From: Rhodobacteraceae bacterium WFHF2C18
GTDB lineage: Bacteria; Pseudomonadota; Alphaproteobacteria; Rhodobacterales; Rhodobacteraceae
Reading direction: 5' to 3'
Length of the DNA stretch: 64,000 nucleotides
NCBI GenBank assembly: GCA_002166865.1
Contig: NHTQ01000002.1
Coordinates: 682,001-746,000 of the forward strand
Of this stretch, positions 10,318-26,269 are shown piece after piece. Both the position numbers and the translations under genes were made by a program. Each line of letters starts with the position of its first letter. The stretch's first letter is position 1. The notes below the pieces were generated by a model. The model saw only the letters and a list, made by a program, of their open reading frames with translations. It had not been told where the DNA came from and made no database searches.

Positions 10318-11040
10318 TCAGGGGCGCTGCGCCGCCTGTGCGTCCACGTAGGCGAGCTGCCGGCGGTGCGCCCGCGCGGCGGTGGCCGCGTCGATGAGCG
10401 CGGCGAAGATGCGGCGCTGACGCCGGGCGTAGAACAGGTGTTCGGGGTGCCACTGGACGCCCAGGGCGAAGGGGTCGTGCAGGCATTCGACCGCCTGGAT
10501 CATGCCGCCGCGGTCGCGGGCGGCGACGCGCAAATCCTTCCCGAGCGTATCCACTGCCTGCGAATGCAGGGCATTGACCACCATGTCGCTGTCACCGGCC
10601 ACGTGTGACAGGCGCGACCCGGCGGCGACCGAGACCGTCTTGCGCGGCAGCACCGTCCAGACCTGGTCGCTGGACTGGTAGACGCCGTAGGCGTCGGAAT
10701 GCAGGGTGCCGCCGAGCGCCACGTTGATCATCTGCGCGCCCCGGCAGATCCCCAGGACCGGCATCCGCCGGTCCCGCGCGGCGAGAACGAGGCCCTTTTC
10801 CAGTTCGTCGCGCGCCGGGTCGAGCCGGGCGCTGGTCACCAGGTGGCCACCGTAGAGATCGGGCGAGATGTCGTCCCCCCCGCCGATGATGAGCCCGTCC
10901 ACGTCCTCCAGATCGGCGGGGCGGCCCGCGCCCCAGCGGACGGCCCTGCCGCCGGCCAGCCAGACGTTGAGCGCCACCAGCGGGAAGACGCGCCAGCCAG
11001 ACCGGGCCGAGGTCGTGACGCCGATGCGCGGACGGCTCAT
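10318..11040 (-). CDS. Class I glutamine amidotransferase-like protein (peptidase C26, PuuD-like)
   Basis: 240 residues. The nucleophile elbow GICRGAQMINVALGG carries the catalytic Cys, and GVQWHPEH carries the His-Glu pair. This matches gamma-glutamyl-gamma-aminobutyrate hydrolase-type enzymes. Here it overlaps the upstream amidoligase gene by 4 bases (ATGA), so the two are almost certainly co-expressed. It may hydrolyse gamma-glutamyl amides, or act on the amidoligase's product. True PuuD sits with other puu genes, none of which are nearby, so a puuD name is not justified. Confidence 0.85.
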   Translation of the reverse strand: MSRPRIGVTTSARSGWRVFPLVALNVWLAGGRAVRWGAGRPADLEDVDGLIIGGGDDISPDLYGGHLVTSARLDPARDELEKGLVLAARDRRMPVLGICRGAQMINVALGGTLHSDAYGVYQSSDQVWTVLPRKTVSVAAGSRLSHVAGDSDMVVNALHSQAVDTLGKDLRVAARDRGGMIQAVECLHDPFALGVQWHPEHLFYARRQRRIFAALIDAATAARAHRRQLAYVDAQAAQRP

Positions 11041-12044
11041 GGGGTGGGGTCGCCCCGGAAGGCGTCGTCCAGAACCGCGCCGACGTGGCGCGCCCAGTCC
11101 GCGCGCGCGGTCAGGTAGCTTTCGCGATGGACCAGCCAGTCATCGGCCAGCCGTTCCAGCAGCGCGGGATCGGCGGCCACGCATTCCACCACGCGGAAGC
11201 GGTTCCACTCGTAGGCCAGGGTCCATTCCTCTTCGTCGATCCGGCAGTCGGGCAGGCGGTAATGCCAGGTGGGCCGGGCCTTGACCGCCTGTGCCCCCCG
11301 AAGGTGGTGCAGGACGCGGGCCTCGTCGATGTGGCGCAGGAGCGGCAACAGGTCCATGCCGTGATTGCGCGAGGGCGCGTTGGCCAGATAGGCCTCGATC
11401 ATCTGCGCCATCGTCCAGTCGGGCGCTTCCTCGACCAGAAGGTCGACGAAGCTGCGCGGATAGGGATCCACGAAGGGCAGCAGCCGGCGGGAGGGGTCGA
11501 TGGGATCGGCCCGGCGCAACCAGTCCTCCAGCAGGGCGAAGGCGCGCAGCACGGGGACGATGGCGCGCGTCGTGGTGTCGGGCACCTCGGTATTCAGGTG
11601 CAGGCCGAAGCCCAGCAGAACCCCGTTGCGGCTGCCGATGGCGCCGTTGCGGCGCAACGCGTCGCGCAGGTCGTCGAGCCGCGCAAGGCGTTCGAAGGTC
11701 AGCGGACCGGTGGCGATTTCCACCGGCACCACCAGCCGCGCGGCATTGAGCACGGCCGTCGCCGCCGCCGAGGGCGTGGCCGTGCGATAGGCGGTGTCCA
11801 GAACGATGCTCACCCCGCCGATATCGGTTTCCTCGACCCGGGCCTCGTGGGCGCCGACCTGTTCGATGCGGCCGCCGAAGCAGCCCTGCACCACGCCGGC
11901 GGCCTCCAGTTCGGTCAGCCCGCCGAACTCGATCTCCACGCCGGTGCGCCGCGGCGTGCCGTCCGCCTTGTCCGGCTGGGGCAGGGGAAGAAAACGCGCC
12001 GTGTCGAGCCAGCCGATCATCGCGGGCGGCCAGGTGTCAGGCAA
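11037..12044 (-). CDS. Amidoligase family protein (putative COOH-NH2 ligase)
   Basis: 335 residues from a TTG start at 12042-12044; the ATG at 12018-12020 is an equally possible start and neither has a clear ribosome site. The N-terminal RTGVEIEFGGL matches the Glu-rich metal/ATP signature of the glutamine-synthetase-like amidoligase family, and GLHLNTEV is a second conserved block. Family members are predicted to join a carboxylate to an amine using ATP, in peptide modification or small-molecule synthesis. The gene overlaps the glutamine amidotransferase by 4 bases and follows a flavodoxin-family gene, defining a compact uncharacterised pathway. Confidence 0.8.
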   Translation of the reverse strand: MPDTWPPAMIGWLDTARFLPLPQPDKADGTPRRTGVEIEFGGLTELEAAGVVQGCFGGRIEQVGAHEARVEETDIGGVSIVLDTAYRTATPSAAATAVLNAARLVVPVEIATGPLTFERLARLDDLRDALRRNGAIGSRNGVLLGFGLHLNTEVPDTTTRAIVPVLRAFALLEDWLRRADPIDPSRRLLPFVDPYPRSFVDLLVEEAPDWTMAQMIEAYLANAPSRNHGMDLLPLLRHIDEARVLHHLRGAQAVKARPTWHYRLPDCRIDEEEWTLAYEWNRFRVVECVAADPALLERLADDWLVHRESYLTARADWARHVGAVLDDAFRGDPTP

Positions 12045-12080
12045 GGCCCGGGGCGGGGCGGGGGATGTACAACACGTCGG

Positions 12081-12830
12081 TCAGGCCCTGTAATCGGGGT
12101 TTTCGTAATCGAAACGGCACCCGGCCTGCCAGGCGCGGCGATCGTTGCCTTGCGGCGGCAGCCCGCCCGCGTCGCGCAGCATCCGCGCCATGTGCATGAG
12201 GTTCCAGGTCATGATGGTGGTATTGCGCTGCGTGAAGTCGTTGTCAAACCCGGCGCGGCCCGCGCCGGTGGGATCGCCGTAGGACGGGCCCGGCCCCGCC
12301 TCGCCGATCCAGCCGCAATCGGCCTGCGGCGGAATGGTGCATCCCAGATGTTGCAGCGCGTAGAGGATGGTCATCGCGCAATGCTTGATCCCGTCCTCGT
12401 TGCCGGTGATGACCGCGCCGCCCGTCTTGCCGTAGAAGATGCTCTGCCCGCGGTCGTTGAGTTCCCCAGACATGCCGTAGAGCCGTTCGATCAGCACCCG
12501 GCAGACCGAGCTTTCCTCGCCCAGCCAGATGGGCGTGCCGACCAGCAGGATATCGGCCCGGCTGACGCGTTCCCAAAGGGCGGGCCAGCCGTCGCTGTCG
12601 CGGCCGTGGTCGCGCATGTCGGGATAGACCCCCGGCGGGATGTTCAGCGCGGCCATCTGCGCGTGATCGACCGTGACGCCGTTCTTCTCCATGATCCCGG
12701 CAGCGGCCCGCAGCAGGCTTTCGGTATGCGAGGCGCCGCGCTCCGGCTTGAGCGAGCAGTTGAAGATCATGGCCGTGAGGCCGGCGAACGCATCGCTTTC
12801 GCCCGCGGCGGGCTGAAGGTCCTGGGGCAT
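12081..12830 (-). CDS. Flavodoxin-family NAD(P)H-dependent oxidoreductase
   Basis: 249 residues. The N-terminal MIFNCSLKPERGASHTESLL is an FMN phosphate-binding loop of the NADPH-dependent FMN reductase class. The mid-protein ADILLVGTPIWLGEESSVCR and the KTGGAVITGNEDG block complete the flavodoxin-like fold. The substrate is unknown. It is the first gene of the set leading to the amidoligase and amidotransferase, with a 36-base gap to the amidoligase, so it may supply a redox step in the same pathway. The start has a GGAGC site. Confidence 0.82.
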   Translation of the reverse strand: MPQDLQPAAGESDAFAGLTAMIFNCSLKPERGASHTESLLRAAAGIMEKNGVTVDHAQMAALNIPPGVYPDMRDHGRDSDGWPALWERVSRADILLVGTPIWLGEESSVCRVLIERLYGMSGELNDRGQSIFYGKTGGAVITGNEDGIKHCAMTILYALQHLGCTIPPQADCGWIGEAGPGPSYGDPTGAGRAGFDNDFTQRNTTIMTWNLMHMARMLRDAGGLPPQGNDRRAWQAGCRFDYENPDYRA

Positions 12831-12909: not shown

Positions 12910-13398
12910 TCAGAGGCCGGTCTGATAGGGGGCCCGGCTCTTGCGCGGGCTGCCGAATTCCTCTTGCAGTTCCTTTTCGACTTCGTCCAGCGGCACGGTG
13001 GTCAGGGTCTTGGGAAGTTCGGCCAGGACGCGGCTTTCGACTTCCTTGTGCAGCTTGTGGCGCAACTCGCCCAGAACCTTGGGCGAGGCCACCAGGATGA
13101 TACGGTCGTACAGGCCCCGGTGGGCCCGCTGATACAGCAGGTCCGCCAGGTCGTCGGCGAAGCGGTCCTTCTCCAGCCGGTGCCAGTCCGTGTCGTCCAG
13201 CGAGGAGCGCTGCTGCACCCCGTCATCCTGGAAGCGGCCGGGTTTGTCGGTGCCCTGCTCGCGGGTGCTGGGGTTCTCCTGCTCCTTCATGCTGACCACG
13301 GTGAGGTTGAAGTCGATCTCGTCCCCGTCGTTGCGCAGAAAAAGCGCCTTCTCGCCGTCGGCGATGAGCACCCATGTACCGGTCGTCACCTTTTTCAT
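12910..13398 (-). CDS. Host attachment family protein (bacterial eRF1-like fold)
   Basis: 162 residues. The start KVTTGTWVLIADGEKALFL, the central RFADDLADLLYQRAHRGLYDRIILVASPKVLGELR and a C-terminal amphipathic helix match the family annotated as required for attachment to host cells, now grouped with bacterial archaeo-eRF1-like domains. The name comes from a plant-associated bacterium and the molecular function is not settled; a ribosome- or stress-linked role has been proposed for the fold. It overlaps the upstream small gene by 4 bases, and both may be read from the EcfG-type promoter of the PfpI gene. Confidence 0.83.
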   Translation of the reverse strand: MKKVTTGTWVLIADGEKALFLRNDGDEIDFNLTVVSMKEQENPSTREQGTDKPGRFQDDGVQQRSSLDDTDWHRLEKDRFADDLADLLYQRAHRGLYDRIILVASPKVLGELRHKLHKEVESRVLAELPKTLTTVPLDEVEKELQEEFGSPRKSRAPYQTGL

Positions 13399-13700: not shown

Positions 13701-14261
13701 TCACGCAGCCTTGCGATCGTGGCGGCCGCCTTCGACGTCGCGGACGATCGCGGCGACGAAGGCGGGCAGATCGTCGGGGGAGCGGCTGGTGATGATGCCC
13801 TCGTCCTCGACCACTTCGGCGTTTTGCCAGTTGGCGCCGGCGTTCCGAACGTCCGTCACGATGGACTTGTAGGACGTCATCGCCCGGCCGTCGACGAGGC
13901 CCGCCTCGATCAGCAGCCAGGGCGCATGGCAGATCGCCGCAATGGTCTTGCCTGCGTCGTAGAAGGACCGGACCAGATCGATCGCCGTGTCGTTGACGCG
14001 CAACAGGTCGGGATTGATCTGCCCGCCCGGCAGGACGAGGGCGTCATAGTCGTCCGGCGCCACCTCCGCGAGTGCAAGATCGGCCGCGACGGGGCTGCCC
14101 CAGTCGCTGATCTTCCAGCCGGTGATGGCATCGCCGCCGGGTGTGGCGACATGGACGGTCGCCCCGTGCCCCGTCAGGTCGTCGCGCGGCACGTCCAGTT
14201 CGGATTGCTCGAAGCCGTTGGTGGCCAGGATGAGGATCTTGGAGTCGGTTATCTGGGGCAT
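13701..14261 (-). CDS. PfpI/DJ-1 family protein (type 1 glutamine amidotransferase-like)
   Basis: 186 residues, full length for the PfpI/YhbO group. The nucleophile elbow AAICHAPWLL carries Cys and His, and the Glu of the triad-like set is in NGFEQSELDVP. YhbO-like members protect cells against oxidative, thermal and carbonyl stress; protease, deglycase and chaperone activities have all been claimed for the family. AGGAG precedes the ATG. An exact EcfG-type promoter with a 17-base spacer ends 49 bases upstream, in line with a stress role. Confidence 0.9.
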   Translation of the reverse strand: MPQITDSKILILATNGFEQSELDVPRDDLTGHGATVHVATPGGDAITGWKISDWGSPVAADLALAEVAPDDYDALVLPGGQINPDLLRVNDTAIDLVRSFYDAGKTIAAICHAPWLLIEAGLVDGRAMTSYKSIVTDVRNAGANWQNAEVVEDEGIITSRSPDDLPAFVAAIVRDVEGGRHDRKAA

Positions 14262-14309: not shown

Positions 14310-14335
14310 AACGTGCCGGGCCCGAGCGTGGTTCC
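14310..14335 (-). promoter_or_regulatory. EcfG-type promoter for the PfpI gene and probably two following genes
   Basis: On the minus strand GGAAC (14335-14331), 17 bases, CGTT (14313-14310). It is in the 104-base gap between the metallophosphoesterase and PfpI genes. Confidence 0.77.
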
Positions 14336-15178: not shown

Positions 15179-15323
15179 GGGGCCTCCGTCGGTCGTGAGC
15201 ACGGGCCGGGGGGCGCCCGGCAGTCTGCGAGGGGGTCAATGGACGAAGCGGCGCGCAGGTTCCCGATTTCGTGATTGGAGCGGAACCGCCCGCGCGTGAG
15301 AAAGTTTGGCCCGTGGAGGTCGC

Positions 15324-17618
15324 ATGACACTACAGGAATTTCGCCGCAACTGGCTGACGAAACCGATCCACAACTGGGCACGTGGCGCGATGCCGCGCCT
15401 GTCCGAGACCGAGCGCGAGGCGCTGAACGCCGGCGAAGTCTGGTGGGAGGCCGAGCTTTTCACCGGCAACCCCGACTGGAAGACGCTGCGCGGCACCGCC
15501 GCGCCCGCCTTGACCGAAGAGGAACGCGCCTTTCTTGACGGGCCCTGCCGCGAGCTTTGCGACATGATCGGCGACTGGCAGATCAACAGGCTGACGGCCG
15601 ACCTGCCGCCCGAGGTCTGGGATTTCCTGCGCGACAACGGCTTTTTCGGGATGATCATTCCCAAAGAATACGGCGGGTTGGGTTTCTCGGCCCTGGCGCA
15701 TTCGGAAGTGGTGCGCTTCATCTCCACTCGGTCACTGGTGGCTGCCGTCACGGTCATGGTGCCCAATTCACTGGGGCCGGGGGAGTTGCTGTTGCAGTTC
15801 GGCACAGACGCGCAGAAGGATTACTGGCTGCCGCGCCTTGCCGACGGGCGCGAACTTCCGGCCTTCGGCCTGACCAGCGACGAGGCCGGATCGGACGCCG
15901 CGTCGATGGTGGATAGCGGCGTGGTCTGCAAGGGCGAATGGAACGGCGAGGAGGTGCTGGGCCTGCGGCTGAACTGGTCCAAGCGCTACATCACCCTTTC
16001 ACCCGTCTGCACGGTGCTGGGACTGGCCTTCAAGATGCGCGACCCCGACGGCCTGCTGGGCGGGGACGAGGACATCGGGATCACCTGTGCATTGGTCCCC
16101 ACCGACCTGCCCGGGGTCGAGACCGGGCGCCGCCATATCCCCGCCGGGCAGATGTTCCAGAACGGGCCGACCACCGGGGAGGATGTGTTCGTCCCCCTCG
16201 ACAACATCATCGGCGGGCCGGATTACGCCGGCAAGGGCTGGATGATGCTGATGAGCGCCCTGGCCGCGGGCCGGGGCATTTCGCTGCCCTCGCAGGGGGC
16301 GGCGGCCACGGCCATGGCGGCGCAGACCTCCGGCGCCTATGCCCGGATCCGCGAACAGTTCGGGGTCCCGGTGGCCAAGTTCGGCGGCGTGCAGGAAGGG
16401 CTGGGACAGCTGGCCGCGAATGCCTATGCGCTGGATGGGGCCCGGCGCCTGACCTGCGCGGGTCTGGACGAGGGCCGCGCGCTGGCCGTCATCTCCGGCA
16501 TCATGAAGGCCCATGCCACCTACCGAATGCGCGACGCGGTGGACTGGGCCATGGACATCCATTCGGGCAAGGCCGTGATCGACGGGCCGTCGAATTACCT
16601 CGGCCCGCTTTACAAGGCGGTGCCCATCGGCATCACCGTGGAGGGGGCCAACATCCTGACGCGCAGCCTGATCATCTTCGGCCAGGGGGCGGTGCGCGCG
16701 CATCCCCACCTGCTGGACGAGATCAGGGCGCTGGACGAAGACGACGACGCCAAATCGCTCGATGCCTTCGACCGGGCCTTCTGGGGCCACGTGGGGCACA
16801 CGACGCGGACGCTTTTCCGGGCCCTCGGCCGGGCCTGGACGGGGGGCCGTTTCGCCCCCGCGCCGGAGGCCGGCGAGGTCACCTGGATCTACCGGCGCAT
16901 GTCGCGCTGGGCCGCGGCCTTCGCGCTGACCGCCGATTTCGCCTTCCTCATCCTTGGGGGCGATCTGAAGCGGCGCGAGATGATCTCGGCCCGGCTGGGG
17001 GACGTCCTGTCTGAGCTCTACATCCTCTCGGGCACGGTCAAACGCTGGGACGACGAGGGCCGGCAGAGCGAAGACCTGCCGCTGGTGGAATTCGCGGCCC
17101 AGAGCGCCTTTGCCCGCATGGGCACGGCGCTGGACAATGTATTGGCGAATTTCCCGGCGCGGGTCGCGGCCGGGCTCCTGCGGGCGATCACGCTGCCGCG
17201 GCACGCCGCGCGGGGCCCCAGCGACAAGCTGAACGCCCGGTGCGCCGAACTGATATCGGAGGCGACGGCGACGCGGGAGCGGCTCAAGGGATTCTGCCAC
17301 GAGGGCTGCGATCGCGACGGCGTCCGCGTTCTGTTGCGGGCCTTCACCGCGGTCACGGATTGCGCGGACCTCGGCAAGCGGCTGCGCGAGGCCGAGATGA
17401 CCATCGAGGAGGCCGAGGCCGCCGGCACCCTGTCGCCCGCCGAGGCCGAAAAGCTGCGCGAGATGGAGGACCTGGTCGCCGAGGTCGTGAAGGTGGACGA
17501 GTTCGACCAGTCCGAGCTCGGCCGCTTCTTTTCCGAAATGATCCCCGTCGATCAAAGCGGCGCGATCCCGCCCGATCGGCGCGGGTCAGCCAGCGAACCA
17601 CAGGAGAGAGCCTCATGA
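15324..17618 (+). CDS. fadE: Long-chain acyl-CoA dehydrogenase, FadE type
   Basis: 764 residues, the long bacterial FadE format: an N-terminal extension, an acyl-CoA dehydrogenase core (about 100-480; FAD/substrate region FGLTSDEAGSDAAS) and a C-terminal DUF1974-like helical region. It catalyses the first oxidation of fatty acyl-CoA to trans-2-enoyl-CoA. A GGAGG site before ATG 15324 sets the start. It is the first of four genes that overlap one another by ATGA, encoding successive beta-oxidation steps. The fadE name follows domain architecture and context rather than measured chain-length specificity. Confidence 0.9.
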   Translation: MTLQEFRRNWLTKPIHNWARGAMPRLSETEREALNAGEVWWEAELFTGNPDWKTLRGTAAPALTEEERAFLDGPCRELCDMIGDWQINRLTADLPPEVWDFLRDNGFFGMIIPKEYGGLGFSALAHSEVVRFISTRSLVAAVTVMVPNSLGPGELLLQFGTDAQKDYWLPRLADGRELPAFGLTSDEAGSDAASMVDSGVVCKGEWNGEEVLGLRLNWSKRYITLSPVCTVLGLAFKMRDPDGLLGGDEDIGITCALVPTDLPGVETGRRHIPAGQMFQNGPTTGEDVFVPLDNIIGGPDYAGKGWMMLMSALAAGRGISLPSQGAAATAMAAQTSGAYARIREQFGVPVAKFGGVQEGLGQLAANAYALDGARRLTCAGLDEGRALAVISGIMKAHATYRMRDAVDWAMDIHSGKAVIDGPSNYLGPLYKAVPIGITVEGANILTRSLIIFGQGAVRAHPHLLDEIRALDEDDDAKSLDAFDRAFWGHVGHTTRTLFRALGRAWTGGRFAPAPEAGEVTWIYRRMSRWAAAFALTADFAFLILGGDLKRREMISARLGDVLSELYILSGTVKRWDDEGRQSEDLPLVEFAAQSAFARMGTALDNVLANFPARVAAGLLRAITLPRHAARGPSDKLNARCAELISEATATRERLKGFCHEGCDRDGVRVLLRAFTAVTDCADLGKRLREAEMTIEEAEAAGTLSPAEAEKLREMEDLVAEVVKVDEFDQSELGRFFSEMIPVDQSGAIPPDRRGSASEPQERAS

Positions 17619-18901
17619 GCAGACCCGTCTATCTGGTGGACGGGGCGCGCACCCCGTTCCTGAAGGCGCGGGGCAAACCGGGCCCCTTCACCCCGGTCGA
17701 TCTGGCGGTGCAGTGCGGACGGCCGCTGCTGTCGCGGCTGCCGGTGCCGCGCGATGCCTTCGACCTGGTGATCCTCGGCTGCGTCAACGTGATCGCCGAC
17801 GAGATGAACCCGGCCCGTGTCGCGGCCCTGCGGCTGGGCATGGGCGAGGCCATGGTGGCCTTCACCATGCAGATCAACTGCGGCTCGGGGATGCAGTCGA
17901 TCGACACGGCCTATCGCTACATCCGCGACGGCAGCCACGACCTGATCCTGGCTGGCGGCGCCGAGGCGCTGAGCCACACGCCGCTGGTCCTGCGTCAGGA
18001 GGCGGTGGAATGGTATGCCGAACTGGCCCAGGCCAAGACCACGATGGAGACGGCCAAGAAGATGACCGAGATCCGGCCCGATTTCTTCAAGCCGATCATC
18101 GGGCTTGAGCGCGGCCTGACTGACCCGGTCACGGACCTCAGCATGGGCCAGACCGCCGAGGTGCTGGCCCACCGGTTCGGCATCACGCGCGCGGCCGCCG
18201 ACCTTTACGCGCGCGACAGCCACCACCGGCTGGCGCGCGCGCAGCGGGACGGAAGCCTGCAGGGCGAGGTCCAGCCGGCCTTCGACCGCGCGGGCACGGT
18301 GCATCGGGCCGATGACGGCGTGCGCCCCGAGACCGACATGGACACGCTGGCCGACCTCAAGCCGGTGTTCGAGAAACCCTATGGCCAGGTGACGCCGGGC
18401 AACGCCTCGCAGGTGACGGATGGCGCCTCCTGGGTGGCACTGGCCTCGGAGGCGGCGGTCGAGGCGCACGGGCTGGAGCCGCTGGCACGGATCTTGGACA
18501 GCGAGTGGTCCGCGCTCGACCCGGCGGTGATGGGGCTTGGCCCCGTCCTGTGCGCCACGGAAATCGTCAAGCGTCAGGAACTGGGCCGCGCCGACCTGGA
18601 CCTGTGGGAAATCAACGAGGCCTTCGCGGCGCAGGTGCTGGCCTGCCTGGCGGCCTGGGAGGATCCGGATTTCTGCCGCGAGGTGCTGGCGCTTGACGGT
18701 GCCTTCGGGCGGATCGACCACGAGCGGCTGAACATCGACGGCGGCGCGATATCGCTGGGCCATCCCGTCGGCACCAGTGGAAACCGCATCGTGCTGCACC
18801 TTGCCAAGGCCATGCGCCGCAAGGGTGCCAAGCGCGGCATCGCCACCGAGTGCATCGGCGGCGGACAGGGCGGCGCCATGCTTCTGGAGGAGGTATCATG
18901 A
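17615..18901 (+). CDS. Acetyl-CoA C-acyltransferase (beta-oxidation thiolase, FadI/FadA type)
   Basis: 428 residues. Thiolase catalytic elements are present: nucleophilic Cys in INCGSGMQS, NEAFAAQ, the His in GHPVGTSGNR, and the second Cys in ATECIGGGQGGA. It cleaves 3-ketoacyl-CoA to acetyl-CoA and a shortened acyl-CoA. The length and internal insert (YAELAQAKTTMETAKKM) fit the FadI branch better than the 390-residue FadA or PhaA forms. The start overlaps the fadE stop (ATGA) and an AGGAGAG site precedes it. It forms a split multienzyme system with the next gene. Confidence 0.9.
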   Translation: MSRPVYLVDGARTPFLKARGKPGPFTPVDLAVQCGRPLLSRLPVPRDAFDLVILGCVNVIADEMNPARVAALRLGMGEAMVAFTMQINCGSGMQSIDTAYRYIRDGSHDLILAGGAEALSHTPLVLRQEAVEWYAELAQAKTTMETAKKMTEIRPDFFKPIIGLERGLTDPVTDLSMGQTAEVLAHRFGITRAAADLYARDSHHRLARAQRDGSLQGEVQPAFDRAGTVHRADDGVRPETDMDTLADLKPVFEKPYGQVTPGNASQVTDGASWVALASEAAVEAHGLEPLARILDSEWSALDPAVMGLGPVLCATEIVKRQELGRADLDLWEINEAFAAQVLACLAAWEDPDFCREVLALDGAFGRIDHERLNIDGGAISLGHPVGTSGNRIVLHLAKAMRRKGAKRGIATECIGGGQGGAMLLEEVS

Positions 18902-20997
18902 CAGGCCCCGTTCTTCGCCATCTGGGAGAGACGAAGCTTGACCTCGGTCCGGCGCGCGAGGCCCCGCGCGACAAGGGCTGGCGCGCCGGGCGCGACGATG
19001 ACGGCATTGCCTGGCTTCTTCTCGATGTCGCGGGCGACGGTCCGAACACGGTGTCCGAGGAGGTCCTCGCCGGCCTCTCGGAGCAGATCGAGCGGCTGAA
19101 GGCCGATCCGCCCGCCGCGCTGGTCCTGCGCTCGGCCAAGACCGAGGGCTTCGCCGTGGGCGCCGATATCGGCATGCTCGAGAAGATGACCGACCCGGAG
19201 ACGGCGGAACAGAAACTGCGGCAGGGCCACGAGGTGCTGGATGCGCTCGAGGCGCTGTCGTTCCCCACCATCGCGGTCAGCCACGGCCCGGCCCTGGGCG
19301 GCGGGTTCGAGATCATCCTGGCCTGCGACCGCTGTATCGCGGTTGACGGCGCCAGCTTCGGCTTTCCGGAGGTGAACCTGGGCCTGCACCCCGGCCTGGG
19401 CGGCACCTTCCGCCTGCCCGAACGGATCGACGCGACCGAGGCGATGACCCTGATGCTGACCGGCAAGACGGCGCATACCAAGAAGGCCCGGAAGCTCGGC
19501 ATCGCCGATGTGGTGACGCAGGAGCGCCATGTGGGCGCCGCGGTGCGCGATCTGGCCCACAAGGGGGATACCGAGCGTGACCGCAGCCTGACGGACCGGG
19601 CCATGGCGCTGGCCCCCGCCCGGGCCTATGCCGCGCGGCAGATGCGCTCCAGGACGGCCCAGAAGGCATCAAAGGAGCATTATCCCGCGCCCTACGCGTT
19701 GATCGACCTCTGGGAAGAGCATCACGACGACCGCACGGCGATGCAGCAGGGGGAGATCCGCTCGTTCGCGCGGCTTCTGGCCACCGATACGGCGCAGGAA
19801 CTGATCCGGGTGTTCCATCTGCGCGGCAAGCTCAAGGATCAGGGCGACGGCGAGGATGGTGTGGCTCATGTCCATGTCGCCGGTGCCGGGGCCATGGGCG
19901 CCGAGATCGCGGCCTGGGCGGCGCTGAAGGGCAAGCGCGTCAGCCTGTTCGATCCCGACATCGAGGCCCTGGGCCAGGCCGTGCGCCAGGCGCAGGAGAT
20001 CTGTGACGACGCTCATTGCTCTGCGCTGGAGACACGCGACACCCTGGACCGGATGATGCCCGATCCGGACAACACCGGGGCCGCGGAAGCGGACCTGGTG
20101 ATCGAGGCGGGCCCCGAGGCCCCCGAGATCAAGGGCAAGATCTATGCCGATCTGGAGCCGCGGATGAAGAGCACCGCGACCCTGGCCACCAATACCTCCA
20201 GCCTGTCGCTGGACAAGCTGGCCGAGGGTCTGCGCCGGCCCAAACGGTTTGCGGGGCTGCATTTCTTCAACCCCGTCCCGAAGATGCCGCTGGTGGAGGT
20301 CGTGCGTCACGCGGAGACCTACGGCACCGTCAGCGATCAGCTGGCGCGGTTCTGCGGGGCCATCGGCAAGTTGCCCGCGCGCGTCGCCAACTACCCGGGG
20401 TTCCTGGTGAATCGCGCGCTCACCCCCTACCTGCTTGAGGCGCTGGTGCTGGTGGACGAGGGGGTGCCCAAGGAAACCATCGACCGCGCGGCCGAGGATT
20501 TCGGGATGCCCACGGGCCCGGTGGAGCTGGCCGATTACGTGGGCCTGGACATCTGCCTGCATGTGGCCGACAGCCTGAAGGCGGACCTGGACAGGGCGCT
20601 GGCGGATGTGCCCGGCTGGTTCCGCGAGAAGGTGGAGGACGAAGGCGAGGTGGGCAAGAAGTCCGGCAAGGGCCTTTACATCTGGGAAGACGGCGAGGCG
20701 CAAAAGAACGGCGAGGCTGCCGAGCCGGAGGCCGAGTTGACCGACCGGCTGATCCTGCCGATGCTCGACGCCTGCGTCGAATGCCTGCGCCGCGAGGTGG
20801 TCCAGGATGCCGATCACGCGGATGCGGCGATGATCTTCGGGGCCGGGTTCGCCCCCTTCCGCGGCGGGCCGATGCGCCATGCCCGCGCCCGGGGCATCGA
20901 GACGGTGACAAAGCGGCTGTCCGAACTTGAAGACAAGCACGGCGCGCGTTTCGCGCCCGATGTAGGCTGGACCGATCTCGGCCCGCACGCGGAATGA
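18898..20997 (+). CDS. fadJ: Bifunctional enoyl-CoA hydratase / 3-hydroxyacyl-CoA dehydrogenase (FadJ/FadB type)
   Basis: 699 residues. The N-terminal crotonase domain (about 15-250) includes oxyanion-hole segments KTEGFAVGADIGML and HGPALGGGFEI. The NAD-binding domain (about 325-505; VAGAGAMGAEIA, then LHFFNPVPKMPLVEV) and C-terminal 3-hydroxyacyl-CoA dehydrogenase domains follow. It hydrates enoyl-CoA and oxidises 3-hydroxyacyl-CoA. Pairing with a FadI-type thiolase favours the fadJ name over fadB, but the two cannot be fully separated by sight. It is coupled by ATGA at both ends. Confidence 0.88.
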   Translation: MTGPVLRHLGETKLDLGPAREAPRDKGWRAGRDDDGIAWLLLDVAGDGPNTVSEEVLAGLSEQIERLKADPPAALVLRSAKTEGFAVGADIGMLEKMTDPETAEQKLRQGHEVLDALEALSFPTIAVSHGPALGGGFEIILACDRCIAVDGASFGFPEVNLGLHPGLGGTFRLPERIDATEAMTLMLTGKTAHTKKARKLGIADVVTQERHVGAAVRDLAHKGDTERDRSLTDRAMALAPARAYAARQMRSRTAQKASKEHYPAPYALIDLWEEHHDDRTAMQQGEIRSFARLLATDTAQELIRVFHLRGKLKDQGDGEDGVAHVHVAGAGAMGAEIAAWAALKGKRVSLFDPDIEALGQAVRQAQEICDDAHCSALETRDTLDRMMPDPDNTGAAEADLVIEAGPEAPEIKGKIYADLEPRMKSTATLATNTSSLSLDKLAEGLRRPKRFAGLHFFNPVPKMPLVEVVRHAETYGTVSDQLARFCGAIGKLPARVANYPGFLVNRALTPYLLEALVLVDEGVPKETIDRAAEDFGMPTGPVELADYVGLDICLHVADSLKADLDRALADVPGWFREKVEDEGEVGKKSGKGLYIWEDGEAQKNGEAAEPEAELTDRLILPMLDACVECLRREVVQDADHADAAMIFGAGFAPFRGGPMRHARARGIETVTKRLSELEDKHGARFAPDVGWTDLGPHAE

Positions 20998-22886
20998 ACC
21001 CGCCCCCCGAGATCCACGATGATGCCGATGCGCTTGCCAAAGAGATCGTGGCCCGCGTCGGCCCCGACATCCGGCTGGCGCTGCCGCTGGGGCTGGGCAA
21101 GGCCAACACGGTGGCCAACGCCCTGACCCGGCTGGCCGAGCGCGACGGCGCGATCCGGCTGGAGATCTTCACCGCGCTGACGCTGGAGCGGCCCGACCCG
21201 GGCAGCGAGCTTGGCCGGCGGTTCATCGGGCCCGCGCGGGACCGTCTGTTCGGGGCCTATCCCGGCCTGCGTTATACCGAGCTTCTGCGTGCCGGGGCAG
21301 TGCCCGACAACATCACCGTGCACGAGTTCTTCTTTCTGGCGGGCAACTGGATCGGCAGCGAGACGCAGCAGCGCAATTACATCACCGCGAATTATACCCA
21401 TGCGCTGCCCTACCTGGCAGAGCGGCGGCCCAACGTGATCGCCCAGCTTCTGGCCCACGAGGGCGGCGCGCGTTACAGCCTGTCGTGCAATACCGACATC
21501 TCGGCGGATCTGATCGCCATGCGGGCCCGGGGCGCGATCGATTTCCTGATGGTGGGTGAACTCAACGACGAGTTGCCTTTCATGCCCGGCCCCGCGGCCG
21601 AGATCGACCGCGGCGAGGTGGACCTGCTGCTGGATGATCCCGCAACGCGCTTCGAGCTTTTCTCGGCGCTCAAGCAGCCGGTTTCGCTGGCCGATCATGC
21701 CATCGGCCTGCACGTGGCGCGGCTGATCCCGGACGGCGGCACCCTGCAGATCGGGATCGGCGCCATCGGCGACGCGGTGGCCGCCGCGCTTGGCGAGCGG
21801 CACCGGGACCCGGGGAGGTTCCGCCAGATCCTGCGCGCGTCGCCCTTTGCCGCCAAGAGCCCGATGGACGAGACCGCGGCCTTCGAAACGGGTCTTTACG
21901 CGGTGACCGAGATGCTGGTCGAGGGCCTTCTGGAACTGTTCGAGGCCGGGATCATCCGGCGCGAGGCGCAGGGGGCGAAGATGCACGCGGCGTTTTTCGT
22001 GGATTGCCGGAATTTTTACAGGCGCCTGCGCGAGATGCCGCGTGACCGGCGCGCCGAGATCGCGATGACGCCCGTCTCCTTCACCAACGAGCTTTACGGC
22101 GACGAAGCCGGCAAGCGGGCGGCCCGGCGCGACGCCCGGTTCGTCAACGCCGCGATGAAGGCCACGGCGCTTGGCGGCGTCGTCTCGGATGTCACCCGAA
22201 ATGGGCGGATCGTCAGTGGCGTGGGCGGGCAGTACAATTTCGTGGCCCAGGCGCATGCGCTGGAAAGCGGGCGCTCGATCATCACGCTGCCGTCGACGCG
22301 GCGCAGTGGCGGCAAGCTGGAGTCCAACATCGTTTGGGACCATCCGCACGAAACGGTGCCGCGGCACCTGCGCGATATCGTGGTGACAGAGTACGGCGTG
22401 GCCGACCTGCGCGGCAAACCCGACGCGGAGGCGGTGACGGCCATGATCGCCATCGCCGACAGCCGGTTCCAGGACGGGATTCTGAGGCGCGCCAAGGTGG
22501 CCGGCAAGGTGCCGGCGGACTGGCAGATCCCGCCGGGCTTCCGCGTGAACACGCCAAGGACCCTGGAAAACTGGCTGCAGCCCTGGCGGGACGAGGGGCT
22601 GCTGCCGCGGTTTCCGCTGGGAACCGACATGACAGAGGTGGAGCAAGATCTGGCCGTCGCCCTGGACCGTGTGAAGATGGCCGGGGGGGCCTGGCGGGAG
22701 CTGGCCGGGCTTGCCCTGCGCGGAGCGCGGCCCGGGCATGATCCGCAAGAGGCCGCCTGCCTGTCGCGCATGGGGCTTGCCGGGTCCGCGGGGATGAAGG
22801 AGCGGCTGATGGCCTGGATCGTGCGCGGCGCGCTGCGCAGGGCCGGCGGCCCTCACGCCTCCGCGTCGTCCTCGGATGGATCCTGA
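20994..22886 (+). CDS. Acetyl-CoA hydrolase/CoA-transferase family protein
   Basis: 630 residues, longer than the ~430-residue 4-hydroxybutyrate CoA-transferases, with a C-terminal extension of about 130 residues. Family marks are GGTLQIGIGAIGDAVA, the glycine-rich SGVGGQYNF and VVTEYGVADLRGK near the C-terminal domain. Such enzymes move CoA between acyl groups or hydrolyse acyl-CoA. As the fourth ATGA-coupled gene it may handle the acetyl-CoA or short acyl-CoA made by the operon. Its last 34 bases overlap, tail to tail, the 3' end of the histidine kinase gene on the other strand. Confidence 0.85.
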   Translation: MNPPPEIHDDADALAKEIVARVGPDIRLALPLGLGKANTVANALTRLAERDGAIRLEIFTALTLERPDPGSELGRRFIGPARDRLFGAYPGLRYTELLRAGAVPDNITVHEFFFLAGNWIGSETQQRNYITANYTHALPYLAERRPNVIAQLLAHEGGARYSLSCNTDISADLIAMRARGAIDFLMVGELNDELPFMPGPAAEIDRGEVDLLLDDPATRFELFSALKQPVSLADHAIGLHVARLIPDGGTLQIGIGAIGDAVAAALGERHRDPGRFRQILRASPFAAKSPMDETAAFETGLYAVTEMLVEGLLELFEAGIIRREAQGAKMHAAFFVDCRNFYRRLREMPRDRRAEIAMTPVSFTNELYGDEAGKRAARRDARFVNAAMKATALGGVVSDVTRNGRIVSGVGGQYNFVAQAHALESGRSIITLPSTRRSGGKLESNIVWDHPHETVPRHLRDIVVTEYGVADLRGKPDAEAVTAMIAIADSRFQDGILRRAKVAGKVPADWQIPPGFRVNTPRTLENWLQPWRDEGLLPRFPLGTDMTEVEQDLAVALDRVKMAGGAWRELAGLALRGARPGHDPQEAACLSRMGLAGSAGMKERLMAWIVRGALRRAGGPHASASSSDGS

Positions 22887-24592
22887 AGCTCGAAGGTGAC
22901 GTGCAGCCCGAAGCGGTCGGGCCGGTCCTCCACCTCGCTGGTGCCGCCCAATTGCGCGACGAAGGATTCGATCAGCCGCGTCCCGAGCCCGACACGCTCG
23001 TGTTCCTCCGCGTCGGCGTCGGTCGGCCGCCGCGAGTTCACGACACTGAAGTGGATCGTGCCGTCTTCGCGCGCTGTCAGCGCCACCGTCAGCCAGGGGG
23101 GGGCGTCCGGCGGGGCGGCGCAGTACTTGGCGGCGTTGGTCAGCGCCTCGGTCGCCAGCAGGGCCAGCGGGACGGATTGGTCCGGGGCGATCTCCACCAC
23201 ATCGAAATTGGTGGAGGCGTTGATCGCGTTGCCCTCCGCGTCGTGTTCGCGGATCAGCATCAACTGCTCGATGATCTTCCTGAGCAGGAGGTCGGCGCGC
23301 ACCTTGCCGACATTGCGCGCCATATAGAGTTGGCGGTGGATCGCCGCCAGGGCCAGCACGCGTTCCTGGACCCGCCCGAGGACGAGGCGCACGTCCTCGC
23401 TCTTGGCGTTGCGGATCTGCATGTTCATCAGGCTCGAGATGAGCTGGAGGTTGTTCTTGACCCGGTGGTGGACCTCGCGCAGAAGCGTGGCCTTCTCCTG
23501 CAGGTCTTCCTCGCGGTGGCGCTCGTGCTCGGACAGGCGCCGTGTCATGTTGCGGAAGGCTTCGGCGACCACCTCGATCTCCTCGGGGGCGTTGTGCAAC
23601 TGCGCGTCCGACAGGTCATGCTCGCCCGTGGCATAGAGCCGCATCCAGTGGCGCAGGCGCCGGATGTGCCGGATGACCAGGCGGTTGAGGCCGAAATAGG
23701 CCACGATCATCCCGGTCACCCACATCAGCAGCGGGAAGTAGAGCGCCATCGCCTCGCCCATGCCCAGCCAGGCCTGCCGGTTGTCGGGTGTCCAGCTGCC
23801 AAGCAGGAAGACCTCGTCGCCGACGATGGGCACCACGGCGAAATCCCGCAGCCCGCCCCGGCGGTTCGTGCTGCGGAAGGCCTGACGCCCCTCCCGGGCC
23901 AGGCTGGCCAGTTCGCGGTTCCTGGGCAGCACGTCCTGGCGCGCCGCCCCATCCCCGTTCATGCTGAGAACCTCGCCGTTGCGATCGAAGACGACCAGGT
24001 CGACCGGTTCCCCGTGATCTTCCAGGAGCGCTTGGGAAATGTCCTGGGGAATGGCCACCGTGACGAACCCCACGGGCGTCCCGCTCACGATCACCGGCAC
24101 GGTGACCCCCATGGCGGATTTCATCGGCAGCGCCTCGTCCGGGCGCGCATTGAAACGGCGGACGGGATCGGACATGAGATCGCGGAAGACCTGCGTGCCG
24201 CTGACATCCAGGCGTATGCCGGTGGAGGAGCAGGTGATCTGGCCCTCGGCATTGATGAACCCGGCGAAGGAAAAGTTGTCGTCGGCGGCGACGAGCCGCG
24301 CCATGACGCTATCGCAGGTGGCCTGGTCATCACGGAAAACGGGGATCGCGGCGGCGACGGCATCCGCGGCCCCGAAGGCCGACTGCACCAGTTGCTGTTC
24401 GCGCCCGGCGGCCTTTTGGGTCCGGTCCAGCAGCGCGGCCTCGGACAGTTCGCGCGACTCCTCGATCACCTGGGCCGTCTGGTAGACCGAGATCAGGCCC
24501 AGCGGCAGGATTGCGATGGTCAGGATGAACAGAAGCCGCAGCGCCAGACCGGACTTCGAAGGCGCTCGGCCTTGCCAAGTCTGGCGCGTCAT
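22853..24592 (-). CDS. Membrane sensor histidine kinase, HisKA_2 type, of the general stress cassette
   Basis: 579 residues. A first membrane helix near residues 15-40, a periplasmic dCache-like sensor, a second helix near 280-300 and a HAMP-like linker lead to the dimerisation box EVHHRVKNNLQLISSLMN with the phospho-His. A HATPase region (LLATEALTNAAKY) ends the protein. HisKA_2/HWE kinases encoded next to ecfG are the usual PhyR kinases of alphaproteobacteria, so PhyR is the likely partner. It overlaps ecfG by ATGA and is therefore translated with it. The signal sensed cannot be predicted. Confidence 0.88.
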   Translation of the reverse strand: MTRQTWQGRAPSKSGLALRLLFILTIAILPLGLISVYQTAQVIEESRELSEAALLDRTQKAAGREQQLVQSAFGAADAVAAAIPVFRDDQATCDSVMARLVAADDNFSFAGFINAEGQITCSSTGIRLDVSGTQVFRDLMSDPVRRFNARPDEALPMKSAMGVTVPVIVSGTPVGFVTVAIPQDISQALLEDHGEPVDLVVFDRNGEVLSMNGDGAARQDVLPRNRELASLAREGRQAFRSTNRRGGLRDFAVVPIVGDEVFLLGSWTPDNRQAWLGMGEAMALYFPLLMWVTGMIVAYFGLNRLVIRHIRRLRHWMRLYATGEHDLSDAQLHNAPEEIEVVAEAFRNMTRRLSEHERHREEDLQEKATLLREVHHRVKNNLQLISSLMNMQIRNAKSEDVRLVLGRVQERVLALAAIHRQLYMARNVGKVRADLLLRKIIEQLMLIREHDAEGNAINASTNFDVVEIAPDQSVPLALLATEALTNAAKYCAAPPDAPPWLTVALTAREDGTIHFSVVNSRRPTDADAEEHERVGLGTRLIESFVAQLGGTSEVEDRPDRFGLHVTFELQDPSEDDAEA

Positions 24593-25143
24593 GCAGCCGG
24601 TTTGCCGGAAATTACCGCGGCGGTAGCGTTGTCGGTCATCTCGAACTCCTCGGATTCGTCGAGAGCCATCAATTCGGCCAGCCGTTTGCGAGCCCGGTTG
24701 GTGCGGCTCTTGATCGTCCCCACGGCGCAGCCGCACATCTCGGCCGCATCCTCGTAGGAAAAGCCCTCGGCGCCCACGAGAACCAGGGCTTCGCGCTGCT
24801 GGTCGGTCAACTGCGCGAAGGCCCGGCGGAAATCCTCCATCGCAAGCCGCCCGTCGTGGTGGGGTTTTTCCGACAGCGTGTCAACCAGGGCGCCTTCGGG
24901 GTCTTCCACTTCGCGGCGGCGCTTGCGGTGCAGGGAATAGTAGGTGTTGCGCAGGATCGTGAACAACCACGCTCGCAGGTTCGTGCCCGGTTCGAACTTG
25001 TCGAAGTTGCTCCACGCCTTGACGATGGCCTCCTGAACCAGGTCGTCGGCGGTGGAGGGATTGCGCGTCAAGCTGATGGCGAAGGCGCGCATCGCCGGCA
25101 GGTGTTCCACCAATTCGTCGCGGGGATCGGAAATGTCAGTCAC
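24589..25143 (-). CDS. ecfG: EcfG-type (ECF15) general stress sigma factor
   Basis: 184 residues with sigma region 2 (about 15-85; DDLVQEAIVKAW and NLRAWLFTILRN) and region 4 (about 110-165; FSYEDAAEMCGCAVGTIKSRTNRAR). It directs RNA polymerase to GGAAC-N16/17-CGTT promoters. It is second in a nepR-ecfG-kinase operon with 4-base overlaps at both junctions and is divergent from phyR. This partner-switch arrangement is the alphaproteobacterial general stress response: phosphorylated PhyR binds NepR and frees EcfG. At least nine exact target promoters lie in this window. Confidence 0.95.
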   Translation of the reverse strand: MTDISDPRDELVEHLPAMRAFAISLTRNPSTADDLVQEAIVKAWSNFDKFEPGTNLRAWLFTILRNTYYSLHRKRRREVEDPEGALVDTLSEKPHHDGRLAMEDFRRAFAQLTDQQREALVLVGAEGFSYEDAAEMCGCAVGTIKSRTNRARKRLAELMALDESEEFEMTDNATAAVISGKPAA

Positions 25144-25334
25144 TTGTCCTCACCATTTCCGCCATTTTCGGGCGATTTGTTCTCTTGCTCCTGCTCGTGC
25201 TCCTGCTTGCGCAACTTCTGGAGCAGTTCGGTGAACCGTTCCGGAACCGGCTCTTCTGCTGCCTGCGAGTACACACGCCGCAGGTTGTCGTCGATTTGCT
25301 GGTTCAACTTCGATGTCCTGGTCTTCCTGGTCAT
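25140..25334 (-). CDS. nepR: NepR-type anti-sigma factor
   Basis: 64 residues. The conserved core LNQQIDDNLRRVYSQ and PVPERFTELLQKLR gives the two helices by which NepR binds EcfG or phosphorylated PhyR. The tail is rich in Glu, Gln, Asn and Gly, as is common. It overlaps ecfG by 4 bases (ATGA). Only a weak GAAGG-like ribosome site precedes the ATG. A near-match EcfG promoter with TGTT as -10 lies 63 bases upstream, which would give autoregulation. Confidence 0.93.
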   Translation of the reverse strand: MTRKTRTSKLNQQIDDNLRRVYSQAAEEPVPERFTELLQKLRKQEHEQEQENKSPENGGNGEDK

Positions 25335-25389: not shown

Positions 25390-25414
25390 GGAACCTAACA
25401 CGGACGTCGGCGTT
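25390..25414 (+). promoter_or_regulatory. EcfG-type promoter for phyR
   Basis: GGAAC (25390-25394), 16 bases, CGTT (25411-25414), 37 bases before the phyR ATG. It is an exact consensus match at the expected autoregulated gene. Confidence 0.85.
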
Positions 25415-25450: not shown

Positions 25451-26269
25451 ATGACCGACACACAAGGCCTGGGTGACCTTTCTGCCAAGATCGCCAAGGA
25501 GCTTCCTTTCCTCAGGCGCTACGCGCGCGCCCTTACGGGCAGCCAGACCACGGGCGACAATTACGCGGCGGCCGCGCTTGAGACGATCCTTGAGGATAAC
25601 AGCGTTTTCGACCCAGGGCTGTCGCCGCGGGTGGCATTGTTCAAGGTTTTCAACGATATCTGGTCCTCGTCCGGGGCGCCGGTGGAAAAGCCCGAAGAGG
25701 GCGGACTGGCCGAGGAGCGGGCCCAGTCCCGGCTGGCATCGCTCACGCCCAACACGCGCGAGGCGCTGCTGCTGCACGTGATCGAGGGGTTCGAGGTCGG
25801 CAGCGTAGCGACCATCATGGGTATCTCGGCGGCGGAGGCGCAGGAACTGGTCGATATCGCCCGTGCCGAGATGCGCGATTCCATCCAGGGGAGCGTGATG
25901 GTGATCGAGGACGAGGCCATCATCGCCATGGACATCACCTCGATCGTCGAGCAGGCCGGGCACGAGGTCACGGGCGTCGCCCGCACCCGCGACGAGGCCG
26001 TGCGCCTGGCCGATGCCACGCTGCCGGACCTGGTGTTGGCCGACATCCAGCTGGCCGACAAATCCTCGGGTATCGACGCCGCGAACCAGATCATCGAGAA
26101 CCTCGGTGAGGTTCCGATCATCTTCATCACTGCTTTTCCGGAGCGATTGCTGACCGGCGAACGCCCCGAGCCGGCCTTCCTGATCACCAAGCCCTTCACC
26201 GTGGAACAGGTGCATTCGGCGATCAGCCAGGCCATGTTCTTTTCCAGCACGGAAACGTTGCAGGCGTGA
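25451..26269 (+). CDS. phyR: PhyR-type response regulator (anti-anti-sigma factor)
   Basis: 272 residues: an N-terminal sigma-factor-like domain (about 1-135, mimicking EcfG regions 2 and 4) joined to a receiver domain (about 147-268). The receiver has acidic pocket residues in VIEDE and phospho-acceptor Asp198 in LVLADIQ; the conserved Lys is in LITKPF. On phosphorylation it sequesters NepR. A GAGG site precedes the ATG and an exact EcfG promoter drives it. It is divergent from nepR-ecfG, and its kinase is probably the HisKA_2 protein of that operon. Confidence 0.96.
   Translation: MTDTQGLGDLSAKIAKELPFLRRYARALTGSQTTGDNYAAAALETILEDNSVFDPGLSPRVALFKVFNDIWSSSGAPVEKPEEGGLAEERAQSRLASLTPNTREALLLHVIEGFEVGSVATIMGISAAEAQELVDIARAEMRDSIQGSVMVIEDEAIIAMDITSIVEQAGHEVTGVARTRDEAVRLADATLPDLVLADIQLADKSSGIDAANQIIENLGEVPIIFITAFPERLLTGERPEPAFLITKPFTVEQVHSAISQAMFFSSTETLQA

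Follow-up and report, generated by a model that had tools for sequence, protein, structure and literature searches.

Within a 64,000-nucleotide stretch of the genome of Rhodobacteraceae bacterium WFHF2C18 (contig NHTQ01000002.1, positions 682,001 to 746,000; this whole stretch is called the window below), two overlapping genes encode an amidoligase of the Amidoligase_2 family and a class I glutamine amidotransferase-like protein (GAT; Peptidase_C26, PuuD/SpuA-like). These genes almost certainly form a real two-gene unit, and their neighbourhoods and upstream sequences make it very probable that, in a good part of the family Rhodobacteraceae, this unit is controlled by EcfG, the sigma factor of the general stress response (GSR). 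In our preferred reading, to which we give a probability of roughly 0.45, the pair would be an EcfG-regulated ligase–amidotransferase that makes a small amide, probably of glutamate, with GAT acting as a glutaminase which feeds ammonia to the ligase. A preliminary description of this stretch had joined both genes with a preceding flavodoxin-family oxidoreductase gene into a single pathway and missed the GSR setting.

The amidoligase and its partner

To go by its modelled structure, the amidoligase is a glutamine-synthetase-fold ligase with intact conserved residues and a predicted activity in ATP-dependent amide formation. It is a clear member of Amidoligase_2 (PF12224; 167.3 bits, with a gathering cut-off of 22) and contains the RTGVEIEF signature by which the preliminary description had recognized it. 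The check for intact residues proposed there yielded 18 invariant columns in 46 aligned amidoligases, including E37, E39, D83, E109, N151, R186, R226, R257, H261, R263 and E287, i.e. residues which, judging from the fold, would bind ATP or metal. The AlphaFold model (predicted local distance difference test, pLDDT, 91.5) was matched by VIA-align to the glutamine synthetase 5dm3 (Z 13.0, root mean square deviation 3.9, 222 aligned), and the 50 matches listed are all glutamine synthetases or enzymes of this type. Since Foldseek taken alone gave weak matches (best E 0.013, to a plant glutamate cysteine ligase), it is the VIA-align match from which we take the fold.

GAT scores 158.2 bits with Peptidase_C26 (cut-off 20.5) and 55 bits with GATase (E 7.8e-15), and the Cys-His-Glu triad already pointed out in the preliminary description is invariant in 46 aligned GATs (C99, H198 and E200). 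Top Foldseek matches of its model (pLDDT 93.3) are Lin1909 (3fij), SpuA (7d53/7d50) and PuuD (6vtv), and on the PuuD equivalog NF008471 it reaches a score of 97.6, which is below the cut-off of 266. With a mean column identity of 51% as compared to 31% for the ligase, GAT is the better conserved of the two proteins, as calculated from two alignments of 46 sequences each that do not contain the same loci.

The two genes go together nearly everywhere. Among 295 genomes sampled from the family (Rhodobacteraceae, to which the source genome belongs), 49 carry the amidoligase and 46 carry GAT (counted at E<=1e-30), with all 46 being found within those 49 (including genome G083, where the two genes are located on different contigs); the corresponding Fisher p of 1e-50 was obtained with genomes that are not independent of each other. 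GAT directly follows the amidoligase in 44 of 47 fetched family loci, in 21 of 24 loci from elsewhere in the class Alphaproteobacteria (L130, which gave no match to the window amidoligase, is scored as a miss), in 73 of 80 loci from named genomes (with L149, which stops at a contig end, also scored as a miss) and in 20 of 22 loci sampled from the phylum Pseudomonadota, among them those of all 13 sampled genomes outside the class; these sets of loci overlap. In 44 of 63 pairs, the reading frames overlap by exactly 4 bases, and some overlap is present in 59 (start codons were chosen by a script, which found none for the amidoligases L039, L063 and L076 and the GAT L113, and these were left out). 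A check for fusions of the two genes covered five family loci in which open frames or gene calls are long, and the reading frames were separate in these. The loci in which the amidoligase stands without an adjacent GAT include L060, L188, L190, L195 and L208, with Roseinatronobacter, Roseibaca and Natronohydrobacter among them; the L060 protein is part of the alignment whose invariant columns hold the catalytic-type residues.

No third gene was seen to be conserved along with this unit. Outside the family, no cluster of neighbouring genes stands beside the pair in more than a few loci, and, apart from stress-locus genes, no neighbour family does so either, with most single neighbours being unannotated. 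The ten annotated neighbours outside the family, which include a CitMHS transporter, a mechanosensitive channel, TauE, VTT, a peroxidase, LexA and LrgB, hint, as an uncontrolled sample, at a context of osmotic or membrane stress.

Linkage to the general stress response

In many relatives, the pair is located directly behind the genes for an EcfG-type sigma factor and an HWE kinase, with the PhyR gene being divergent. Counted from the fetched loci, an EcfG-type gene is present in the flanks of 20 of the 47 family loci, and PhyR, EcfG and HWE kinase occur together in 31 of the 80 named-genome loci, in an arrangement that varies, with the stress genes being placed upstream of the pair in either orientation or, in opposite orientation, downstream of it. 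A match to the PhyR_sigma2 domain, which stands for either PhyR or EcfG because the Pfam model matches both proteins, was found in 43 of the 49 genomes with the amidoligase versus 149 of the 246 others (status per genome read by eye from the profile search results). In the window itself, the GSR locus, consisting of kinase, EcfG, a NepR-like open reading frame (ORF) and PhyR, lies 11–13 kb from the pair, and its EcfG-type sigma factor shares 71% identity, over the matched part, with its counterpart at locus L041.

Promoter sequences point in the same direction. The published EcfG consensus is GGAAC-N16-CGTT or, in another species, GGAAC-N17-20-GTT (accessible parts of PMC7083833 and PMC6599016), and the strict box used here, GGAAC-N16/17-CGTT, agrees with it; a relaxed box leaves the first base of the −10 element free, and the reversed pattern served as a control. 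Strict boxes number 82 in the source genome (40 forward and 42 reverse; control 17 and 31), 11 of which fall in the window (p 5e-7), where the four assigned to a gene precede the starts of the DegP-like, HdeD-like, PfpI and phyR genes, and relaxed forms are found at the two PRC-barrel genes and nepR. For counts across genomes, near-identical loci were first removed, which left 139 loci, 116 of them from the family. A strict box precedes the amidoligase in 30 of these 116, with ~1.3 expected from the box rate over the same loci. This applies to family loci adjacent to GSR genes (19 of 48, expected 1.1) as well as to the other family loci (11 of 68, expected 0.23), and the reversed pattern was seen in neither group. 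Within the set of 47 family loci, a box occurs in 20 of 41 loci from PhyR_sigma2-positive genomes versus 0 of 6 from negative ones (Fisher p 0.03), with two of the six genomes that gave no match being less than 90% complete.

The boxes also keep a specific distance from the gene. An in-frame ATG is found exactly 8 nt past the box in 17 of 30 loci with a strict box and in 23 of 41 with a relaxed one (15 and 21, respectively, under the rule applied to the control), as compared to 2 of 174 other strict boxes in family loci, for which 45 distances are in the range of 27–36 nt. This spacing occurs in 19 of 73 clusters formed at 65% protein identity and is not a result of recent copying, since the 16-base spacers of the 23 loci are on average only 30% identical. 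In Dinoroseobacter shibae DFL 12, whose pair is DSHI_RS19780/19775, the ATG located 8 nt behind the box is the annotated start of the amidoligase (plasmid pDSHI02). If the distance typical of such promoters applies, transcription would begin at this ATG or right beside it. Kept exactly in many genera with otherwise differing spacers, the 8-nt distance suggests a leaderless, stress-specific mRNA of the amidoligase, with its predicted 5' end at the start codon.

The same 153-kb plasmid pDSHI02 (L251) carries a stress-gene island with the amidoligase–GAT pair that is similar to that in the window, and 15.6 kb of it hold five strict EcfG boxes on the plus strand; genes for PRC-barrel, host-attachment family, Pmp3-type, Trk, Dps and Do-type protease proteins are located near the pair there.

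The loci of the pair share both their promoter box and a similar set of neighbouring stress genes with the PhyR–NepR–EcfG system. A full-text literature search did not find 'amidoligase' together with either 'EcfG' or 'general stress response', nor was the pair found in the literature searched as a member or neighbour of the GSR. The pairing of amidoligase and GAT as such may already be described in Iyer et al. 2009, who reportedly predicted Amidoligase_2 proteins to be amidoligases that make unknown amides. Among the literature matches listed, there is no biochemically characterized member of this family and, to our knowledge, little is known about which metabolites the alphaproteobacterial GSR produces. 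Linking Amidoligase_2 to the GSR opens a direct test of both questions, i.e. of the nature of the amides and of the metabolites made in the stress response.

Proposed function and alternatives

We propose that, upon stress, PhyR would free EcfG, and the pair would then be transcribed. In many genera, this would occur from a promoter directly in front of the amidoligase gene, probably yielding a leaderless mRNA, and in the source genome probably from the EcfG box at 14310-14335, with the pair at the end of a longer run of genes. At the expense of ATP, the ligase would activate a carboxylate and then join an amine or ammonia to it; the most likely substrate is glutamate or a glutamate-containing compound, reacting through its gamma-carboxylate. 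GAT would be made by translational coupling and would most likely act as a glutaminase that feeds ammonia to the ligase, with which it may form a complex. The resulting product, a small and neutral amide, would benefit the cell under stress. A ligase equipped with its own glutaminase agrees with the translational coupling, with the strict pairing and with the observation that no third gene recurs beside the two. What has been computed are the families, intact conserved residues and folds, the pairing and overlap, the GSR linkage and the promoter boxes; what we infer are EcfG-driven transcription, the leaderless start, complex formation, the glutaminase role, the substrate and the product. That no product has a name which can be read from the sequence had been said before, and we agree; a gamma-glutamyl-type amide, as also envisaged in the preliminary description, is the natural guess from both protein families.

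MurT and GatD can serve as a model for this division of labour between ligase and glutaminase; MurT is of the Mur-ligase type and not of the glutamine-synthetase fold, and GatD belongs to another GATase group. In peptidoglycan amidation, these two proteins represent a ligase with a separate GAT subunit (accessible parts of PMC5871853 and PMC3267633).

Several observations weigh against the ligase–glutaminase reading or its stress-related part. In sequence and fold, GAT resembles the hydrolases PuuD and SpuA more closely than it does glutaminase subunits, and the amidoligase is found without an adjacent GAT in 3 of 47 family, 3 of 24 class and 7 of 80 named-genome loci. A strict box next to the amidoligase is missing in 86 of 116 family loci, and the amidoligase in the window is not directly preceded by a box, which occurs only before the head of its run. 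Outside the family, none of 23 loci has a strict box and 2 of them have a relaxed one (expected 0.08), placed elsewhere relative to the gene, and GSR genes were located near the pair in 0 of the 24 class loci; with GSR genes and the strict box being absent there, GSR control looks like a lineage-specific adoption rather than a core function. Moreover, the p-values overstate the independence of the data, since GSR loci are rich in boxes and the loci are related. Nor is the 8-nt spacing unique to the amidoligase, because short distances between box and start (8, 8, 2 and 2) are given for four other EcfG-dependent genes (accessible part of PMC6599016).

Nearly as likely as the ligase–glutaminase reading is a ligase–hydrolase cycle, equally under EcfG control, in which the amidoligase would join glutamate to an amine and GAT would hydrolyse the gamma-glutamyl amide again, as do PuuA/PuuD and AtdA1/AtdA2. 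The amine could be a polyamine, ethanolamine, an aromatic or another amine, which the pair would store, detoxify or buffer under stress. The closeness of GAT to hydrolases fits such a pair, with its Peptidase_C26 score (158 bits) being far above that for GATase (55 bits) and with SpuA and PuuD as its nearest named relatives of solved structure. Also in favour, characterized ligases of the glutamine-synthetase fold mostly activate the gamma-carboxylate of glutamate. The gamma-glutamyl-amine pathways PuuA/PuuD and SpuI/SpuA likewise combine a ligase of this fold with a Peptidase_C26 GAT-like protein, but their ligase belongs to another Pfam family, and the window GAT falls short of the PuuD equivalog cut-off, a score that counts against the cycle. 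No conserved third gene was seen beside the amidoligase–GAT pair, and the oxidase, dehydrogenase and aminotransferase families of the Puu and Spu pathways are not among its recurring neighbours, with most single neighbours being unannotated and the rest of the genomes not having been searched. Two-gene combinations of a ligase and a GAT-like protein, as found here, are AtdA1/AtdA2 for aniline and NpaA1/NpaA2 for 1-naphthylamine and, in the case of aniline, the GAT-like enzyme hydrolyses the product of the gamma-glutamylanilide synthase; both systems, however, include a Rieske-type dioxygenase (accessible part of PMC11335346), whereas no conserved third gene was seen at the loci of the pair. 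What further speaks against the cycle is that, besides stress-locus genes, no neighbour family recurred in more than a few loci, with most single neighbours being unannotated, and the consideration that a ligase and its opponent made from one coupled mRNA would cycle ATP without gain unless they are separately controlled.

In a more far-reaching reading, which we consider unlikely, the pair would serve the GSR as a dedicated metabolic effector that forms a neutral amide solute from glutamate (or a glutamate peptide), and its EcfG promoter would be positioned such that the mRNA starts at the amidoligase start codon. Glutamate building up with potassium under osmotic stress would thereby be converted into a neutral solute, and a leaderless mRNA would keep the enzyme being made when normal translation initiation fails. 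If true, this would represent a new stress metabolite together with a stress-proof mode of translation.

Peptide tagging or protein modification, in which a PafA-like amidoligase would attach amino acids or peptides to the side chains of proteins during stress and GAT would take them off again, is improbable. The broad fold is the same, and Foldseek lists Dop and PafA with weak scores (E 0.04 and 0.06), but neither appears among the 50 VIA-align matches listed (which in itself excludes nothing), the amidoligase profile found no convincing PDB chain (two matches at E 0.35 and 0.46), and no Pup-like or proteasome gene is among the recurring identified neighbours, with no specific search for such genes having been made.

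The Pfam family of the ligase also occurs near a glutamine amidotransferase in the LUZ24-type phage cassette, which comprises Amidoligase_2, GATase_6 and ATP-grasp proteins (accessible part of PMC3890496). This cassette differs by its class II amidotransferase and its ATP-grasp protein, whereas the partner in the window is of class I. A phage origin is unsupported, since a tblastn search of 50,697 phage records gave no hit for the window amidoligase at E 0.01; no PHROG matches the amidoligase, and GAT matches phrog_7218 (glutamine amidotransferase) with E 1.2e-21. A function in anti-phage defence was dismissed, with 0 PADLOC families found at E 0.01 for the amidoligase, GAT and the FMN (flavin mononucleotide) reductase encoded in front of them.

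The FMN-reductase gene and other neighbours

Amidoligase, GAT and FMN-reductase genes are located on the minus strand just where the preliminary description had placed them, and both the 36-base gap behind the FMN-reductase gene and the ATGA overlap of amidoligase and GAT are borne out, as is the assignment of the upstream gene product to the flavodoxin family (table 1). A redox/amide pathway of all three, with the FMN reductase acting on the same metabolite, is nevertheless very improbable since, against the common strand, the short gap and the weak phyletic association given below, the FMN-reductase gene stands beside the pair in 0 of 47 family, 0 of 24 class and 0 of 80 named-genome loci and, in the phylum sample, does so in the window's own genome only. 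The co-occurrence analysis proposed in the preliminary description thus yielded near-perfect pairing of amidoligase and GAT and no adjacency of the FMN reductase elsewhere, and what holds of the three-gene pathway is the conserved overlapping pair. The redox step assumed to accompany gamma-glutamyl conjugation is unsupported, because the FMN-reductase gene is not beside the pair in any of the relatives examined, and the FMN reductase was therefore discarded as a pathway member.

Relatives of the FMN reductase (E<=1e-30) are present in 26 of the 295 family genomes, 10 of which, including the source genome, also have the amidoligase. In 13 of 16 fetched loci of such relatives (L254–L269), an acyl-CoA-dehydrogenase-like gene precedes theirs by 1–3 kb on the same strand; of the other three, one has such a gene 6 kb away on the opposite strand, and none was seen in two. 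A strict EcfG box was found in 0 of these 16 loci. The FMN-reductase gene looks like a chance neighbour of the amidoligase–GAT pair. Against this view stands a weak and unexplained phyletic association, with the amidoligase being present in 10 of the 26 genomes that have a relative of the FMN reductase versus 39 of the 269 others (Fisher p 0.004). With the acyl-CoA-dehydrogenase-like gene, the FMN-reductase gene may form a separate conserved pair.

In the window, amidoligase and GAT end a minus-strand run in the order PfpI, a 91-residue ORF, baeRF, FMN reductase, amidoligase and GAT, with gaps of 30, −4, 79, 36 and −4 bases, which we infer to be a single transcript. The amidoligase reading frame starts with TTG at 12044, with an in-frame ATG at 12020 as an alternative. 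As for the baeRF/host-attachment gene of this run, a 'Protein required for attachment to host cells' is included in the list of EcfG-dependent genes of Sphingomonas melonis Fr1 (accessible part of PMC6599016).

Table 1. Features of the window, with positions counted from its first nucleotide
Feature	Position	Strand	Basis and remarks
GAT, class I glutamine-amidotransferase-like (Peptidase_C26, PuuD/SpuA-like)	10318..11040	-	240 aa; Pfam E 3.4e-46
Amidoligase (Amidoligase_2, glutamine-synthetase fold by model)	11037..12044	-	335 aa; Pfam E 7.4e-49
FMN_red (flavodoxin-fold) gene	12081..12830	-	Pfam FMN_red E 4.5e-13; neighbour, outside conserved unit
baeRF/host-attachment family gene in run	12910..13398	-	Pfam baeRF_family12 E 4.1e-47, Host_attach E 4.7e-40
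DJ-1/PfpI-family gene, head of run	13701..14261	-	Pfam E 1.7e-47
EcfG-type promoter box GGAAC-N17-CGTT	14310..14335	-	pattern search; 48 nt before pfpI-like gene
HWE/HisKA_2 histidine kinase of stress locus	22853..24736	-	Pfam HisKA_2 E 9.2e-22, HWE_HK E 7.9e-08
EcfG-type sigma factor	24589..25143	-	Pfam Sigma70_r2 E 6e-18, Sigma70_r4_2 E 5e-16
NepR-like 64-aa ORF, overlaps sigma factor gene	25140..25334	-	translation read by eye
Strict EcfG box upstream of phyR	25390-25414	+	pattern search
PhyR (stress response regulator)	25451..26269	+	Pfam PhyR_sigma2 E 3.2e-25, Response_reg, PhyR_sigma-like

The short ORF that overlaps the sigma factor gene is presumably NepR-like, to go by its translation. 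The locus for phyR, nepR, ecfG and kinase lies in a stress-type gene island (4419-32267), within which there is also a plus-strand run of the fatty-acid beta-oxidation type (15306-22886); Pfam assigns 3HCDH/ECH and acetyl-CoA hydrolase/transferase to this run, and its acyl-CoA dehydrogenase and thiolase labels come from reading ORF translations only. The island comprises genes for a DegP-like protease, two PRC-barrel proteins, a DUF308/HdeD-like protein, PfpI and baeRF proteins, a metallophosphoesterase, a mechanosensitive channel, a pyridoxamine-oxidase-like protein and BrkB, with several of its genes having strict or relaxed EcfG boxes.

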